64,000 nucleotides of DNA. It comes from Acidobacteriota bacterium. Its GTDB lineage: Bacteria > Acidobacteriota > Terriglobia > Terriglobales > Acidobacteriaceae. Shown piece by piece: positions 36,730 to 47,862 of the stretch (within the stretch, counting starts at the first letter, position 1; each line of letters opens with the position of its first letter). Location: NCBI GenBank assembly GCA_018268775.1, contig JAFDVV010000057.1, positions 29,642 through 93,641 of the forward strand, read 5' to 3'. The notes under the pieces are model-generated. The model was not told the origin of the DNA. It saw only the letters and a program-made list of their open reading frames with translations, and did not search any database. The position numbers and the translations under genes were made by a program.

Positions 36730-39012
36730 ATGAATTTTCCTAAGACAGGCAATCTTGGATTCCCACGCATGGGAGCACGGCGCGAGCTCAAGTTCGCCCT
36801 GGAAGGCTTTTGGAGCGGCAAGCATGACGAGGCTGAGTTACGCAGTGTAGCGGCTGAGCTTCGTAGAACGCACTGGAAGATGCAATATGAAGCCGGAATT
36901 GTGACTCCGCCTTCAAACGACTTTTCCTTGTACGACCATGTGCTCGACCTTGCGACTGCCGTTGGCGCTGTTCCCAGGCGGTTCGGTCATACGGGGGGAC
37001 GTGTGAGTCTGGCAACCTATTTCGCAATGGCGCGTGGCTCCGGCGGCGCAACAGCGATGGAGATGACGAAGTGGTTCGACACGAACTACCACTATGTGGT
37101 TCCGGAGTTTGAGCCAGAAATGCAGTACGAGCTGCTCTCGACAAAGATTGTCGATGAATATCTGGAGGCCAGGGAGCAGGGTATTGAAACGCGTCCAGTG
37201 TTGTTGGGGCCGGTTTCGTTTGTGCTTCTGGGCAAGCCGACAGATGAGAGCATTGATCGAAGAGATGTACTGTTGGCATTGCTTCCGATCTATGTGGAGA
37301 TATTGCAGCGGTTGCGTAATGCGGGTGCGGAGTGGGTACAGATCGATGAACCTTGCCTCGGACTCGACCTTAGCGATGAATCGCAATCGTATTATGGCGC
37401 AGCTTATGAAGCTTTGCGAAAAAGCCCCAGGCCCAACATCATGCTGGCCACGTACTTTGCAGACATTGCGCAGAACCTGAATCTCGCGTTGGAACTCGGC
37501 GTAGAGGGCCTGCATTTGGATATGGTTCGTGCACCACAACAGCTTGCGGCACTGTCAGCCAAGAGCAAGGATGGTCTTTTTGTGTCGTTGGGGCTCATTG
37601 ACGGGCGCAACGTCTGGAAGGCCGATCTACAGAAGGCAGCCACAGTATTGCGAGAGGCGATTGCGCGCTTCGGCGCGGACAAGGTCCAGGTCGCGCCGTC
37701 CTGCTCGCTGTTACATACGCCAGTCGATCTCGATCTTGAGGTGAAAATGGATCCGGAGATTCGGTCGTGGATGGCCTTTGCGAAGCAGAAGCTGAGCGAG
37801 AGTGCGGTGCTTGCAAAGGCCATTGATGACGACGATTCTATCGTGAACGAGTTAAACATCAATGCGGCGGCGATGGATTCGAGACGGCGGTCGCCCCGAA
37901 TCCATAAGGAGAAAGTCTTGCAGAGGGTCGATTCGGTCGACTCATCGATGCTGGAGCGAACGAGTCCATATGCAGTCAGGCATCAGCAACAAGCCCAGGC
38001 TTTGAAGCTGCCGTGCCTTCCGACGACGACGATCGGTTCATTTCCCCAGACCGCTGAAGTGAGAAAGATGCGCGCGTCGTTTCGTAGTGGAAAGATCGAC
38101 GCGGCTTCGTATAAAGGTTTCCTTGAATCGGAGACGGAAAGGTGCATTCGATTCCAGGAACAGGCCGGCATCGATGTGCTGGTGCATGGAGAGTTCGAGC
38201 GCAACGACATGGTGGAGTATTTTGGCGAGCAGTTGGACGGATTTGTGTTCAGTGAGTATGGGTGGGTGCAGAGTTATGGTTCGCGTTGTGTGAAACCGCC
38301 GATTATCTATGGGGACGTTGCGCGGCCGAAGCCGATGACGCTGGGGTGGTCAAGTTATGCACAGTCGCTGACTCCATTGCCGGTGAAGGGGATGCTGACG
38401 GGACCGGTGACCATTCTGCAATGGTCGTTTGTGCGCGACGATCAACCACGTTCGCAGACCTGTCGACAGATTGCACTCGCAATTCGCGACGAGGTCCGCG
38501 ATCTGGAGGCGGCGGGCCTGAAGATCATTCAGATTGACGAACCGGCGATTCGCGAGGGACTGCCCCTGCGTCGTGCCGATTGGCCAGTCTATCTGGCGTG
38601 GAGCGTCGATGCGTTTCGTCTCGCTGCCTCCGGCGTTGCCGACACCACACAGATTCACACTCACATGTGCTACTCGGAGTTCAATGACATGATGGATGCA
38701 ATCGTCAGAATGGATGCGGATGTGATCTCCATTGAATGTTCCAGGTCGCGCATGGAACTGCTCGATGCTTTCAAGCGGGTACGATATCCCAATGGGATCG
38801 GGCCAGGTGTCTACGATATTCACTCACCGCGGGTTCCGGCAAAAGGAGAGATGGAAGGCCTTTTGTGTAAGGCGCTGGAGGTGTTGTCGCCCGAACAGTT
38901 GTGGGTCAATCCCGACTGTGGGTTGAAGACGCGTGGATGGGAAGAGGTCGGACAGGCGCTTGCGAATATGGTGCAGACCGCGAAGCGAGTCCGTCAGTCT
39001 TTGGCAAAGTAA
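36730..39012 (+). CDS. metE: Cobalamin-independent methionine synthase
   Basis: 760 residues, full length for MetE. Two related TIM-barrel halves: N-terminal NLGFPRMGARRELKFALE and C-terminal TTTIGSFPQTAEVRKMR. Zinc ligands are His645 and Cys647 (HTHMC), Glu669 (ISIEC) and Cys730 (NPDCGLKTR), each offset by four from E. coli. Known reaction: methyl transfer from 5-methyltetrahydropteroyl-polyglutamate to homocysteine, slower than MetH but needing no B12. ATG 36730 is preceded by GGAGAGACG, masked in the predicted leader stem. The riboswitch predicts that a B12-dependent MetH exists elsewhere in the genome. Confidence 0.96.
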   Translation: MNFPKTGNLGFPRMGARRELKFALEGFWSGKHDEAELRSVAAELRRTHWKMQYEAGIVTPPSNDFSLYDHVLDLATAVGAVPRRFGHTGGRVSLATYFAMARGSGGATAMEMTKWFDTNYHYVVPEFEPEMQYELLSTKIVDEYLEAREQGIETRPVLLGPVSFVLLGKPTDESIDRRDVLLALLPIYVEILQRLRNAGAEWVQIDEPCLGLDLSDESQSYYGAAYEALRKSPRPNIMLATYFADIAQNLNLALELGVEGLHLDMVRAPQQLAALSAKSKDGLFVSLGLIDGRNVWKADLQKAATVLREAIARFGADKVQVAPSCSLLHTPVDLDLEVKMDPEIRSWMAFAKQKLSESAVLAKAIDDDDSIVNELNINAAAMDSRRRSPRIHKEKVLQRVDSVDSSMLERTSPYAVRHQQQAQALKLPCLPTTTIGSFPQTAEVRKMRASFRSGKIDAASYKGFLESETERCIRFQEQAGIDVLVHGEFERNDMVEYFGEQLDGFVFSEYGWVQSYGSRCVKPPIIYGDVARPKPMTLGWSSYAQSLTPLPVKGMLTGPVTILQWSFVRDDQPRSQTCRQIALAIRDEVRDLEAAGLKIIQIDEPAIREGLPLRRADWPVYLAWSVDAFRLAASGVADTTQIHTHMCYSEFNDMMDAIVRMDADVISIECSRSRMELLDAFKRVRYPNGIGPGVYDIHSPRVPAKGEMEGLLCKALEVLSPEQLWVNPDCGLKTRGWEEVGQALANMVQTAKRVRQSLAK

Positions 39013-39144: not shown

Positions 39145-40371
39145 ATGAATCGTCGAGCTTTTTTGCAAAGGTCTGCTGCCTTTACCGGATGCAGCGCTGT
39201 CGGCTTGTCCGGCTGTATGAGGAAGGCGGTAGTTGCGCCGGCTGCAACTGCGCCATCGCTGCCTTTTTACGATGCGCCTGGGGCGATACCTCCTATCCGT
39301 GCGGATGTCGATCGCATCTTTCGCATTACGGTGTGCCTGAGGCCGTTCCGCGCGGCGGGGCCTCGTCTGGATGTTGAGCGTGTCGGTGAAAAAATAGTTG
39401 TTCATAACTATGGACACGGCGGGAGCGGGTGGTCTCTCTCATGGGGATCGGCCGATGTGGTGGTGCAGAAGGCCCTTGAAGCGGGGAATGGCGCCAGGGA
39501 TGTTGCGGTCATTGGCTGTGGTGCGCTTGGATTGACTGCGGCGATTACAGCGCAGCGCGCAGGACTTAGTGTAACGATTTATGCAAAAGAGCGACCGCCG
39601 TATGTGCGTTCGTCGCGCGCTACGGGATCGTGGACGCCGGATTCGCGCATCGCGCTAACGTCGGCGACAGCCCCGGGATTTGCAGCGCAGTGGGAGTCGA
39701 TGGCGCGCACATCGTTCGCGATGTATCAGAGCTATCTTGGCATGCCTGGAACCCCTATTGAGTGGACCGATCGATATGCGCTTTCGGACATGACGCGCAA
39801 AGAGAGTGCGGCACTCGATGATGAAGGCAATACGCACGGCTTCGTGCACTATGCGGACAGGTTGGCGGACATCACTCCGCGCTCGCGGGACATCCCGGCC
39901 GGGTCGCATCCTTTTCCTACGAAGTATGTGCGGCGCAGCTCTTCGCTTACGTTCAATGTTGCGGACTACTCTCGCCAGTTGATGAACGATTTTCTGATTA
40001 CGGGCGGAAGAATTGAGACGAAGGAGTTCCACTCGCCGCAGGAGATTGCCGCGTTACCGCAGCGTGTGGCGATTAACTGCACGGGTTATGGTGCGCGTCA
40101 GCTCTGGTCGGATGACAGCATCGTGCCGATTCGAGGGCAGATTGCGTGGTTGATTCCGCAGGAAGGGGTCAACTATGGCCTGTTCTACAAAGGCCTCTAT
40201 GTGCTTGCGCGCCGCGACGGTATCGTCGTGCAGCCAGGGTTTGGAGGAGAAGACGAAGGCTGGAACGACACCAATGAGCAACCCGATCGGGCGGCAGCAA
40301 TTGCCGGGGTTGAAGTTCTGCAAGACCTCTATCGGCGAATGGAAAAGATGCCACGTAGCCGGACTTCATAG
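39145..40371 (+). CDS. FAD-dependent oxidoreductase, circularly permuted DAO type
   Basis: 408 residues. The N-terminus has an RRAFLQ Tat-like motif and a lipobox-like LSGC (Cys24), so it is probably exported and possibly lipid-anchored. The order of DAO-family motifs is unusual: LRPFR (65-69) and HNYGHGG (87-93), normally at the C-terminus of D-amino-acid oxidases, come before the FAD dinucleotide-binding motif VIGCGALGL (122-130). The other conserved DAO strand (ARRDGIVVQPGFGG, about 355-368) is near the C-terminus. It appears to be a circular permutation. Likely oxidises an amino acid or similar amine in the periplasm; substrate unknown. It follows metE by 132 bases. Confidence 0.82.
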   Translation: MNRRAFLQRSAAFTGCSAVGLSGCMRKAVVAPAATAPSLPFYDAPGAIPPIRADVDRIFRITVCLRPFRAAGPRLDVERVGEKIVVHNYGHGGSGWSLSWGSADVVVQKALEAGNGARDVAVIGCGALGLTAAITAQRAGLSVTIYAKERPPYVRSSRATGSWTPDSRIALTSATAPGFAAQWESMARTSFAMYQSYLGMPGTPIEWTDRYALSDMTRKESAALDDEGNTHGFVHYADRLADITPRSRDIPAGSHPFPTKYVRRSSSLTFNVADYSRQLMNDFLITGGRIETKEFHSPQEIAALPQRVAINCTGYGARQLWSDDSIVPIRGQIAWLIPQEGVNYGLFYKGLYVLARRDGIVVQPGFGGEDEGWNDTNEQPDRAAAIAGVEVLQDLYRRMEKMPRSRTS

Positions 40372-40384
40372 AGCGCGACGTACC

Positions 40385-42349
40385 TCACATGGCCTCGATC
40401 TTTATCCGGACTTGTGCTCCGCGTTCCATTTTGATCTCAAGTGGAACGCATTCGAAGCCAGGCACCAGGTTGAAGGTTCGTTCCTTCGGTAGCGGTTCAA
40501 AGTGTCCCTCGGTTGCGGCTACTCGTAGGCTGCCGCTCTTGCGCGTTATGCGAACGGCCCTATCGTCTGTTATGGTCGCGTCTTCATCGCTTCTAGCAAT
40601 CACTGGCAGGATGAACCGGACTGGCTGCGAGGGTGAGTTGGCGGCTTCATAGGAGGCGTGTATCTCTACGGTGCTGCCGGTGAAGAGATAGGAGATGTTG
40701 TAGCGAATCTCTCCCGTAGCAGGCGGCTTCTGCGAGGCTGAGAGTAGACGCCCCGAAGCTGCAAAATTGGCCTCCGTGATGGAGGCGGTCGTTGTCAGCA
40801 GGGCATTGTCGTCACTCAGACTGGTGTAAGGGATACCGGCGGCGTACTCGATACGCGGCGTCAGAGTCATATGTGAAGCATCGCTGAATACCTGCTGGTT
40901 CGATAGCTCGATGAGTTGATACTGAGTCATGCTTGCAGTCAGAACAGGGCCTAGCCGCTGATGATAGAGCAGCGAGAGCGCCCCTCCGGTGGCATGACCT
41001 CCACCGCTCGAGCCACTCCCCGCCTGCACGTGTTCAACGTAATCCCAGTCGTACTGTGTTACGGTGGCGCGCCAGTCGCCGACGGCGACCAGCGTGGTCC
41101 CAATCTCGGGAAATGTTTTTACGCCATAGGCTGAGTCGCGGGGTAGGCTGGCAGAGGCCGGAGTGTCAGGCTGTGTTCGAGTGCGGTCAAGCACGGTGGC
41201 CAATGCTTTGGCATGCGTAAAAGTGTGATGGATACACGGCCTGTCGCCATGTATGAAATAGTCGGGGCCACCGTACAGAAGGCCGTCGTGAGTGCAGGAC
41301 GCCATCAGACGCAGATTGCGTCTGGCGACTTCCGCAAACCGAGCGTCGTGCCCGGCGAGTAGGGCATAGGCAGACTGACAGCCGTCGCTTGTTCTGCTGC
41401 CCCACCATGTCCACTTATAGTTACGCGTACCCCAACTGTTGTCCCACGCGCCGTCAGGCAGCATGAACTCCATGTGGGACTTCAGCGCTTCAACTGTACG
41501 CTCAAGCACCATGGCGTCTCCGGTGGCGAGACTGTAGAGAGCGAGCGCGGGAAGCGACTCTTCAACGTTGTACCCGAGGTCGACAGGGCGGCAGCCCTTC
41601 TCAGTTGTCTTGTCGAGTGGATGGCCCTCTCCAAAGATCAGATTGTTGGGTGTGAGATAGTTGAGGCTTTCATGTGCCAGTGCCCTGGCACGATCAAGAT
41701 AGCTGTGCTCGCCGAGCACTTGTCCGCAAAGAGCAAAACAGTATGAGGCTGTGATGGGGTAGTTGATGTTTCCCGTTTGAATCGTGATGAAGCCGTTGAG
41801 GAACTTTGCCGCGTGTGCAAGCCGTTCCAGCCATTGATGCCGTGTCGCCGCATCGAGCAGGTCGCCATGATGGTGAATCGCCTCGCCGAGAGCGATTGCA
41901 TGAAAGACGGTGATGCCTTTCCAGGAGCTGAGGGTGACATCGTTCACCCAGCTTCCGTCTTCGCGGCTTACTTGCCGCTCGGTCCAGTCGTTGACCATGA
42001 GTGCAGCCCGAAGGTATTTAGCGTCGCCACTGGTCTTTGCCATACGGAGCAGCGGATAGAGGGCGTCTCCGCAGCGTCCGTGAACGATTGCGCAGGCAGG
42101 GCAGAGCAGTGCGCCGTGAAGGCCGGCATCGTGTATGCCCAATACCTGGTGATCCAACATCCCGTCGCACCATGTTTTCAGTGTTTCCGAATAGAGATTG
42201 CGGGGTGGCGCCGGGGTGCCGACGGCTGAGCGCTTGCTGAAGGTTGCAGCCTGGGTGGTGGCAGGGAAGAACGCGGATGCCGCGCCAGCGGCGGAGAGAT
42301 AAAGCAACTCTCTGCGAGAGAGTTGCTCAATTCCATCTCGATTTTTCAT
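40385..42349 (-). CDS. Tat-exported protein, predicted (alpha/alpha) toroid, polysaccharide-active?
   Basis: 654 residues. Tat signal peptide (LSRRELLYLSAAGAASAFF, cleavage near TQAATF). Residues about 50-400 are a series of helical hairpins rich in Trp, His and Tyr (SWVNDVTLSSWKGITVFHAI, GCRPVDLGYNVEESLPALAL), like the six-hairpin toroids of glycosidases and polysaccharide lyases. The C-terminal 250 residues are beta-rich (RYNISYLFTGSTVEIHASY), the usual beta-sandwich companion in heparinase-type lyases. No family assigned with certainty. Its stop is only 13 bases from that of the convergent permuted oxidoreductase. Confidence 0.72.
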   Translation of the reverse strand: MKNRDGIEQLSRRELLYLSAAGAASAFFPATTQAATFSKRSAVGTPAPPRNLYSETLKTWCDGMLDHQVLGIHDAGLHGALLCPACAIVHGRCGDALYPLLRMAKTSGDAKYLRAALMVNDWTERQVSREDGSWVNDVTLSSWKGITVFHAIALGEAIHHHGDLLDAATRHQWLERLAHAAKFLNGFITIQTGNINYPITASYCFALCGQVLGEHSYLDRARALAHESLNYLTPNNLIFGEGHPLDKTTEKGCRPVDLGYNVEESLPALALYSLATGDAMVLERTVEALKSHMEFMLPDGAWDNSWGTRNYKWTWWGSRTSDGCQSAYALLAGHDARFAEVARRNLRLMASCTHDGLLYGGPDYFIHGDRPCIHHTFTHAKALATVLDRTRTQPDTPASASLPRDSAYGVKTFPEIGTTLVAVGDWRATVTQYDWDYVEHVQAGSGSSGGGHATGGALSLLYHQRLGPVLTASMTQYQLIELSNQQVFSDASHMTLTPRIEYAAGIPYTSLSDDNALLTTTASITEANFAASGRLLSASQKPPATGEIRYNISYLFTGSTVEIHASYEAANSPSQPVRFILPVIARSDEDATITDDRAVRITRKSGSLRVAATEGHFEPLPKERTFNLVPGFECVPLEIKMERGAQVRIKIEAM

Positions 42350-42411: not shown

Positions 42412-43380
42412 CTACAGTTCCAGCCTTGAGTCGTCGATTGCGAGCCTGACATTGCCGTCGGAGTTTGCCAGGCGGCGAACCGCTTCCATCTTGTCGACGT
42501 TGGCCTTCAGCATGACGACGGCAATCGGAATGGACTTTCCCGCCGACTTGATGGTGCGGATCGCGGTCTCGCGGTCGATGTTGCAGACCTTCATCAGCAC
42601 ACGAATGCCGCGCTCGACCAGCTTGGCGTTCTTCATGTGTACGTTCACCATCAGGTTGTCGTACACATAGCCGAGCCGTGTCATCGCTCCAGTGGTGATC
42701 ATGTTCAGAATCATCTTCTGGGCCGTTGCGGACTTCATGCGGGTGGAGCCGGAGAGTGCTTCAGGGCCGACATCGGCGATGATGGTCGTGTCCGCCACGT
42801 CTGCCAACGCCGTGTTCAGGTTGCAGACGACGGCTGCGGTCTTCGCCCCGCGAGCGCGAGCGTATTCGACAGCCCCTACAACATAGGGTGTGCGGCCGGA
42901 AGCCGATACGCCGATGACGATGTCTTTACGCGTGGGGCGCCGGCGGGCGATGTCCCGTTGGCCGATCTCAGGGGAGTCTTCGTTGACGTCGGAGGCCGAT
43001 GCCAGGGCCTTGGGGCCGCCAGCCATGATGTACTGCACCTGCGCAGGGGCAGTGGAGAAGGTGGGCGGGCACTCCGAGGCGTCCAGCGAGGCGATACGTC
43101 CCGAAGATCCGGCCCCAACATAAATCAATCTGCCGCCATCGCGCAGCGATCGTGCGACCGTGTCGATCACGATCGCGATCTCAGGCAGCGCCTTTTTTAC
43201 GGCAGCAGCGATCTTTGAATCTTCGTGATTGATGATCCGCGCGATCTCAAGGGCAGACTTTGTATCGAGGCCCTCGGAGGCAGAGTTGGGGGTCTCGGTG
43301 ATGAGTTTCTGGAACTCATCGGAGGTATTTTGAGCGGATTTCGACGGTGGAGTCGACTCGACCATGGTGAGAGTAGCCAT
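42412..43380 (-). CDS. murQ: N-acetylmuramic acid 6-phosphate etherase
   Basis: 322 residues. The SIS fold has GGRLIYVGAGSSGRIASLDA, SECPPTF, VIGVSASGRTPYV and the hallmark GPEALSGSTRMKSATAQK. Known reaction: splits the lactyl ether of MurNAc-6-P to GlcNAc-6-P and D-lactate in peptidoglycan recycling. ATG 43380 is far from the divergent beta-lactamase-fold gene (about 230 bases). The adjacent toroid gene lies 62 bases downstream on the same strand, but a functional link is only a guess. Confidence 0.95.
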   Translation of the reverse strand: MATLTMVESTPPSKSAQNTSDEFQKLITETPNSASEGLDTKSALEIARIINHEDSKIAAAVKKALPEIAIVIDTVARSLRDGGRLIYVGAGSSGRIASLDASECPPTFSTAPAQVQYIMAGGPKALASASDVNEDSPEIGQRDIARRRPTRKDIVIGVSASGRTPYVVGAVEYARARGAKTAAVVCNLNTALADVADTTIIADVGPEALSGSTRMKSATAQKMILNMITTGAMTRLGYVYDNLMVNVHMKNAKLVERGIRVLMKVCNIDRETAIRTIKSAGKSIPIAVVMLKANVDKMEAVRRLANSDGNVRLAIDDSRLEL

Positions 43381-43612
43381 AGAGATTTTACGGGTTGTTC
43401 GCCTGCTGCTCCTCTTTTACATGATTCTAGTCCTATTAGGACGTAGCTGCGCACGGAAAGGTACATGTTTGATACTCCGGACACTGGGGAATGATCGCTA
43501 CGCAATGCGCAGTTTTCCTGGAATGGGTTGACGGTTGGGTCTTCCCGTACGAAACTCGGGCGATTGCAGGATTGCAGCAACGAGGCCACGGTTTATCTGT
43601 AATATGCAGGTC

Positions 43613-44665
43613 ATGGCAAATAGATCGCTCTGGCGCCGCTCAGCGGCCGGTTTTCTTTTGATTGGATTGGGCGCGGCGGGCCTTCGCGCGGAGGCACAGC
43701 CCTTTTCGTTGGATGTACAGAAGACGGATTCTTCGCTCGAAAAAAGTCTCATGGCGTTGGCGTCGACGCATCGCGGTCATGTGGCCCTGTACGCAATCCA
43801 GTTGAATACAGGAAAGACTGTCGCCATCGATGCCGATCATCCTGTACAGACAGCCTCTGTGATTAAGCTGGCCATCCTGTTTGAGGCCATGGAGCAGGTT
43901 CGGGCAGGGAAGGCACACTGGGACGAAAAGCTGACTCTCGCCAAGGGCGATGGCGTCAGCGGCTCGGGAGTACTCTCGTTTTTCGATACCCCGCTTACGC
44001 TGACGCTGAAGGATGTCCTGACGATGATGGTGATCGTGAGCGACAACACTGCGACGAACCTGGCGATCGACCGTTTTGGCGTCGACGCGGTGAACGCCAG
44101 GATTGCCTGGCTGGACCTGAAGGACACGCACCTGTACAAGAAGGTCATGAAGCCTGCGACCGGCCCTATGCCTGCGGACCAACCGAAGTTTGGTTTGGGA
44201 AAGACGACGGCGCGGGAGATGGCGACGATTATGGAGAGGATTGGCCTGTGCGAGCTTGCTGGCCCTGGCGACAAGCCGCAGGCAGGAGACGCTGCGATCT
44301 GCCAGGTGGCCTTAACTATGCTGCGTAACCAGTTCTACCGAAACACGATACCGAGGTATCTCGAGAAGCTGGATTCAAGCGAGACAGGGTCAGGCATTGC
44401 CAGCAAGACGGGCAGTTTGAATGCGGTCCGCAACGATGTTGCTCTTGTGGCCGGAAAAGAGGGGCCGATGGTGATTTCCATCTTCACCTACGATAATGAA
44501 GATAAGAGCTGGACTGCCGACAATGAGGCTGAGATGATGATTGCAAAGCTGGCAAAAGGGATCGTCGATGCCTGGTCGCCAGAGGGATTGGATGGCAAGA
44601 ATCTCGTTCCTGGGCTTGGGATGGGCACTACGGCTTCCGGGGCATCGAAAAGCGCGTCTAAATGA
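43613..44665 (+). CDS. Class A beta-lactamase-fold serine hydrolase
   Basis: 350 residues from ATG 43613, with a signal peptide (hydrophobic 11-24, cleavage near RAEAQ). Active-site motifs are Ser82-x-x-Lys85 (SVIK), Ser143-Asp-Asn (SDN) and Lys265-Thr-Gly (KTG). The omega-loop Glu of class A enzymes (ExxLN, about 36 residues after SDN) is absent; the region reads HLYKKVMKP. The C-terminus is a Ser/Gly-rich tail. It may be a penicillin-binding-like or degenerate enzyme rather than an efficient beta-lactamase. It overlaps lepB by 4 bases (ATGA), so the two are translationally coupled. Confidence 0.85.
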   Translation: MANRSLWRRSAAGFLLIGLGAAGLRAEAQPFSLDVQKTDSSLEKSLMALASTHRGHVALYAIQLNTGKTVAIDADHPVQTASVIKLAILFEAMEQVRAGKAHWDEKLTLAKGDGVSGSGVLSFFDTPLTLTLKDVLTMMVIVSDNTATNLAIDRFGVDAVNARIAWLDLKDTHLYKKVMKPATGPMPADQPKFGLGKTTAREMATIMERIGLCELAGPGDKPQAGDAAICQVALTMLRNQFYRNTIPRYLEKLDSSETGSGIASKTGSLNAVRNDVALVAGKEGPMVISIFTYDNEDKSWTADNEAEMMIAKLAKGIVDAWSPEGLDGKNLVPGLGMGTTASGASKSASK

Positions 44666-47487: not shown

Positions 47488-47862
47488 TTACTCAGGGATG
47501 TAGGCGTCGGCTTCGATCTCGATATGCCAGTGCGGGTTCAGCAGCTCCTTGACGACGACCATTGTGGCTGCGGGAAGCACTGTGCCGAAAAACCTGCCGT
47601 GCACCTGCCCAACGGCCTTCCAGTCCTCGGCGCGCGTCAGGAACATACGTGTGCGGTATACATGCTCGATGGAGGCACCGGCGTTCTTCAGTGCCTCGGC
47701 AATGATTGTCAGGCAGCGCTCGGTCTGTCGGGCAACGTCGAGGTCGTCTGCGCCTACAGGCCCCGTGCCAGAGACATGCACGTGGTTGCCGATGCGGACA
47801 GCGCGAGAAAAGCCGATGACAGGCTCATAGGGAGAAGTGCCTGCAATGTTTGTCCGTTTCAT
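47488..47862 (-). CDS. RidA family protein
   Basis: 124 residues, usual length. RidA/YjgF fold: FSRAVRIGNHVHVSGTGPVG, AGASIEHVYRTRMFLTRAED with the Arg used for substrate in RidA, and a C-terminal IEIEADAYIPE. Canonical RidA removes reactive enamine/imine intermediates made by PLP enzymes; divergent subfamilies do other jobs, so the substrate is uncertain. No clear Shine-Dalgarno upstream of ATG 47862. Confidence 0.88.
   Translation of the reverse strand: MKRTNIAGTSPYEPVIGFSRAVRIGNHVHVSGTGPVGADDLDVARQTERCLTIIAEALKNAGASIEHVYRTRMFLTRAEDWKAVGQVHGRFFGTVLPAATMVVVKELLNPHWHIEIEADAYIPE

Follow-up and report, generated by a model that had tools for sequence, protein, structure and literature searches.

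The window, a stretch of 64,000 nucleotides from the genome of an Acidobacteriota soil bacterium, contains on its forward strand an open reading frame of 408 amino acids (39145..40371) that starts with the ATG at 39145 and whose stop codon ends at 40371. The gene was found to encode a flavoprotein of the D-amino-acid oxidase (DAO) family that carries a Tat/lipoprotein signal and whose chain is, with near certainty, circularly permuted. It stands alone between metE upstream (36730-39012) and a convergent gene on the reverse strand (40388-42349), which encodes a Tat-signal protein of 654 amino acids with no Pfam match at an E-value of 0.001. Beyond it, a gene for a MurQ-like SIS-domain protein (42412-43380, reverse strand) adjoins the divergent gene of an exported class-A beta-lactamase-like serine hydrolase (forward strand, from about 43610), the pair spanning 42412-44665. 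Inclusion of the permuted gene in a peptidoglycan-recycling operon was rejected, as the MurQ-like and beta-lactamase-like genes are set off from it by the oppositely oriented gene, and no link is claimed. The genome has about six RidA-family genes, and one of them (47500-47826, reverse strand) is located 7 kb downstream of the permuted gene, probably by chance. In the nearest relative (G036, locus L081), the permuted DAO likewise has a RidA gene no more than 8 kb away. An amine oxidase homologue is encoded on another contig of the host genome, and the permuted gene lies outside any amino-acid-oxidation cluster there.

The encoded protein can be divided into five parts, all on the forward strand. 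Residues 1-24 (39145..39216) comprise a twin-arginine signal, NRRAFLQ, that leads to an LSGC lipobox with a predicted acylated Cys24, and they include the invariant R3, R4, and C24. They are followed by a flexible linker (residues 25-54, 39217..39306) that would separate the enzyme from its lipid anchor; it is poorly conserved and has a low pLDDT up to residue 42. The C-terminal segment of a conventional DAO now comes in front (residues 55-113, 39307..39483), as delimited by phmmer, Pfam, a rotation scan, and a structural model. This segment includes the LRPxR strand with the LRPFR motif (residues 65-69, 39337..39351), in which Arg66 was aligned with Arg283 of human DAO, the HNYGHGG motif (residues 87-93, 39403..39423), which was read in the frame and falls in conserved columns, and the C-terminal helix. 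A joint of five residues (114-118, 39484..39498) connects the two former termini of the chain; it was placed by the model and the rotation-scan optimum, and in the AlphaFold model it sits between the helix 92-113 and the strand 119-123. The N-terminal and middle part of DAO follows (residues 119-400, 39499..40344), supported by profile matches, alignments, and the model. It begins with the FAD-binding beta1-GCGALG-alpha unit, where GCGALG is the ADP-binding motif for FAD (residues 124-129, 39514..39531; G124, G126, and G129 invariant), and ends with the helix located ahead of LRPxR in a conventional DAO. This helix (residues 382-400, 40288..40344) is the new C-terminal element of the model and corresponds to H241-254/H256-260 of a conventional model. 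The new termini are located in the short loop between it and the LRPxR strand.

The motif order given in the preliminary description, with LRPFR and HNYGHGG ahead of GCGALG, was read directly in the translation of the frame, and the GxGxxG motif was not found at the N-terminus, where it lies in the conventional D-amino-acid oxidase (DAAO) and D-aspartate oxidase (DASPO) family. A phmmer search against the PDB matched residues 58-113 of the query to residues 320-375 of a fungal DAAO (7ct4) and residues 118-334 to residues 7-204 of 1c0i. Similarly, a whole-genome search with the Pfam DAO profile placed profile positions 303-352 at 68957-69109 of the contig, upstream of positions 1-289 at 69140-69943, and hence in swapped order at this locus. 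In the rotation scan, the mature protein was rotated in steps of two residues and scored with a profile built from seven conventional DAO sequences of this phylum. The best single-domain score was 77.2 bits in the natural order (profile 1-241); opening the chain at residues 112-120 raised it to its peak of 130.6 bits (profile 1-307). Across 51 homologues, the mean gain was 50 bits. A rotated query compared to single PDB sequences of solved DAAOs gave longer continuous alignments without a clear gain in the best E-value; the profile-based scan is the more sensitive of the two tests.

That the motif order arose as an artefact, from two gene pieces, a frameshift, a misassembly, or chance motifs, is extremely improbable. 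The same order was observed in single open frames of many isolates and metagenome-assembled genomes (MAGs) from at least three phyla, the permuted gene is present in the complete genome of Terriglobus roseus, and both parts were joined in one fold by a confident model. A split gene was ruled out, as the gene is intact with a conserved order in many independent genomes.

An AlphaFold2 model built from 31 permuted homologues had a pLDDT of 85.6 and a pTM of 0.85. Its strands (E) and helices (H) run E58-69, E77-80, E83-87, H92-113, E119-123, and H127-138 through to H382-400, while a conventional DAO of the same phylum, modeled in the same way, includes E263-273, E278-284, E287-293, and H296-315 at its end and E6-10 and H14-25 through to H256-260 before them. 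The main elements of the two models correspond one to one in a rotated order, which indirectly agrees with the earlier expectation, named as the point on which the permutation would stand or fall, that residues 60-110 stand where the C-terminal region of DAO lies. The element due before LRPxR had also been placed at the C-terminus, which was correct as to its location; it is modeled as a helix (382-400) rather than the strand proposed, and the LRPxR strand (58-69) itself is intact. In Foldseek, which aligned in sequence order only, the 33 best PDB matches of the permuted model were all DAAO or D-aspartate oxidase with TMt values of 0.51-0.64, whereas the 33 best matches of the conventional control, also DAAO and DASPO, had values of 0.78-0.89. 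Higher values for the control would be anticipated if the two models differ mainly in chain order. The circular permutation was thus borne out by sequence, Pfam profile, rotation scan, and predicted structure.

Residues of the DAO active site were retained in both chain orders. R66, P67, and R69 were identical among 47 permuted and six conventional sequences, HNYGHGG (87-93) was nearly identical in the two sets, and further columns common to both included W100, G101, the glycines of GxGxxG, S156, N311, C312, and R356. In human DAAO, R283 binds the carboxylate of the substrate, and the HNYGHGG motif is flavin-binding in DAO. As these core motif residues are conserved, the permuted family is very likely catalytic. 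The human lid tyrosines Y224 and Y228 were aligned to Y348 and Y352, which are present in this protein and variable across the permuted family; hence, substrates may differ between subclades. In addition, Y344 was nearly invariant and Q339 was conserved in the permuted family only.

The N-terminal sequence, MNRRAFLQRS...LSGC, is consistent with a Tat signal and a lipobox, and the export signal described ahead of the permuted part is corroborated by the invariance of R3, R4, and C24 in 31 of 31 aligned homologues. Based on these motifs, the gene product is predicted to be a Tat-exported lipoprotein. Residues 10-42 of the model had a pLDDT below 50. Among 51 permuted homologues, a Tat-like start was found in 46, most of them with the lipobox cysteine and a few without it (L032, L034, L055, and L078). 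One protein was truncated (L068), and four contained no signal: those of Bradyrhizobium (L056), Rhizobium (L057), Nonomuraea (L058), and a member of Pseudomonadota (L076). The signal-less proteins clustered with L078 in the phylogeny. Permutation and export are therefore separable, since a small clade exists without any signal. Export by Tat suits an enzyme in which FAD has to be bound prior to passage across the membrane. In a conventional DAO, the first strand of the FAD domain lies very close to the start of the chain, whereas in the permuted protein the signal is followed by some 30 residues of disordered linker. It is an attractive conjecture that the new N-terminal layout eased the fusion to a signal and anchor.

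The suggestion that similar unannotated proteins may exist was confirmed: the protein belongs to a sizeable family and is by no means peculiar to a single genome. Its homologues include proteins of Granulicella, Terriglobus roseus, Bryocella, Bryobacter, and other MAGs. Among 297 Acidobacteriota species sampled, 26 have a permuted homologue by a count of strong matches, as compared to a clear conventional DAO in seven genomes of the phylum; among the Pseudomonadota sampled, the figure is 20 of 398. Records of a plasmid collection added Niveispirillum, Kozakia, Bradyrhizobium, Rhizobium, Mesorhizobium, and the actinomycete Nonomuraea. All 54 homologues in which the motif order was read, from Acidobacteriota, Pseudomonadota, and one actinomycete, were permuted, a count that leaves out the loci L061, L062, L070, and L071, which the script left unclassified. 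A maximum-likelihood tree of permuted sequences and six conventional ones rotated in silico separated the two forms with a support of 100/99. This is consistent with one permutation event, but is not proof of a single origin, as the conventional sample was small and from one phylum.

The gene neighborhoods of some relatives suggest amino-acid oxidation in the cell envelope, while most of the 49 loci examined had no amino-acid-oxidation cluster. A Tat-type flavin amine oxidase was found nearby in five loci (L097, L108, L109, L117 of Granulicella paludicola, and L119 of Bryocella), although the number of independent loci is lower because L108 and L109 are close relatives. A Tat-type aminotransferase was nearby in four loci and an exported Rid protein (secreted RidA) in three. 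Several loci contained a TonB receptor, and in Granulicella paludicola a secreted M19 dipeptidase was encoded near the permuted gene. Cytochrome c genes were nearby in three of the 49 loci searched: in Kozakia, such a gene follows the permuted gene at a distance of 5 bp, and in two related loci, it adjoins the amine oxidase gene.

Signal-less permuted DAO genes had a different setting. In L056, L057, and L058, the gene is directly upstream of that of a TPP-dependent enzyme, and in the rhizobial L056 and L057, it is preceded by a gene for a berberine-type FAD oxidase (or a similarly named FAD-binding oxidoreductase). This shared setting looks like an undescribed pathway, and the role of the signal-less clade may differ given its TPP enzyme neighbors, with or without the berberine-type oxidase.

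Among known enzymes, DAAO (EC 1.4.3.3; Rhodotorula 1c0i, Rasamsonia 7ct4, and human 2du8) shares with the permuted protein the same fold elements, the FAD motif, the LRPxR arginine, and the HNYGHGG, NCTG, and RGQ motifs. D-aspartate oxidase (EC 1.4.3.1; human 6rkf and Cryptococcus humicola 9vpf) is comparable, with the human enzyme an equally close fold match. The permuted protein differs from both in its rotated chain, its Tat/lipoprotein N-terminus, and lid tyrosines that are not conserved across the family, and its activity is predicted. Glycine oxidase (ThiO) belongs to the same DAO superfamily (PF01266), but has the conventional order and lacks such a signal. It was absent among the 39 phmmer and 50 Foldseek matches listed for the permuted protein, so that membership in this group was unsupported by the closest sequence and fold matches. 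The Pseudomonas enzymes DadA and DauA with their Rid partners are similar in the suggested imine-producing, respiration-linked oxidation and in the Rid genes near some permuted loci; however, they are not close matches and not permuted, and the linkage in the permuted family is restricted to a minority of loci.

Taken with the neighborhoods, the permuted protein is probably a periplasmic oxidase or dehydrogenase of D-amino acids that is held by a lipid anchor, where the substrate class, the electron acceptor, and the export are predictions. About five residues join the old termini, and the new ones lie in the short loop ahead of the LRPxR strand. The protein would fold and bind FAD in the cytoplasm, be exported in the folded state by Tat, and be acylated at Cys24, which would anchor it to a membrane facing the periplasm. 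Arg66 would hold the carboxylate of a D-amino acid, derived for example from peptidoglycan or soil peptides, and the flavin would accept a hydride from the alpha carbon. The imine product would be released and hydrolyzed, and the flavin reoxidized by oxygen or a c-type cytochrome. In two published studies, Rid proteins are described as acting on imines from amino-acid oxidases and as speeding a D-arginine dehydrogenase in vitro (PMC5619798, PMC5979572).

An exported and permuted flavoenzyme of the DAO superfamily could instead act on a substrate other than a D-amino acid. Examples would be glycine, sarcosine, and other N-substituted amines, hydroxy acids, and components of pathways for natural products or the cell wall. 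The variation of the two lid tyrosines by subclade, the conservation of Y344 and Q339 confined to the permuted family, and the signal-less clade, which adjoins a TPP enzyme (two members with a berberine-type FAD oxidase) rather than amino-acid genes, would all fit such a substrate. Nevertheless, this reading is unlikely, given an invariant carboxylate arginine, a sequence and fold closest to DAAO and D-aspartate oxidase rather than glycine oxidase, and amino-acid enzymes among the neighbors of the Tat clade. Within the favored D-amino-acid reading, a respiratory dehydrogenase with a c-type cytochrome instead of oxygen as its electron acceptor is possible, though doubtful. The cytochrome gene of Kozakia and those of the two related loci, where it adjoins an amine oxidase gene, point to such an acceptor, whereas the scarcity of cytochromes among the loci searched and the oxygen-using oxidases that are the closest characterized relatives argue against it. 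More speculative is a broader scenario, in which one ancient permutation founded a separate and widespread bacterial DAO branch, enabled coupling to Tat export and lipoprotein anchoring by opening the new N-terminus outside the first strand of the FAD domain, and led to an envelope system of D-amino-acid respiration with an exported amine oxidase, RidA, an aminotransferase, and cytochrome c as partners.

Pfam and NCBIfam recognized only generic FAD oxidoreductase families in the protein. The permuted family is thereby hidden by automated annotation, which assigns a generic DAO in Pfam and names the records FAD-dependent oxidoreductase. A search restricted to open-access papers retrieved no description of a natural circular permutant of the DAO fold, and open-literature searches for D-amino acid oxidase with Tat or periplasm retrieved nothing on a permuted protein. 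Asaia, like Kozakia, is an acetic acid bacterium. The secretome of Asaia bogorensis lists a released 'D-amino acid oxidase' (PMC12502724), which may be of either the permuted or the conventional form. The permuted family represents a natural experiment on the tolerance of a two-domain flavoenzyme to rewiring and may provide soil bacteria with a way to degrade D-amino acids in the envelope. It also offers an alternative chain layout for the engineering of DAAO, an enzyme used in biosensors and beta-lactam production.

The distribution of the permuted gene was patchy within the host genus. In G423, a genome of the same family, only fragments were found (G423:C3:25775-26199 and C15:160704-160799), and another fragment occurred in G439 (G439:C7:151698-151841). 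One of these fragments contains an in-frame stop, and together they suggest a recent loss of the permuted gene. Additionally, the gene of locus L004 (JANXWZ010000138.1), on a contig labeled as a Rhodanobacteraceae MAG, was nested inside Granulicella in the phylogeny and had a neighborhood of the Acidobacteria type, and this contig was probably misbinned.
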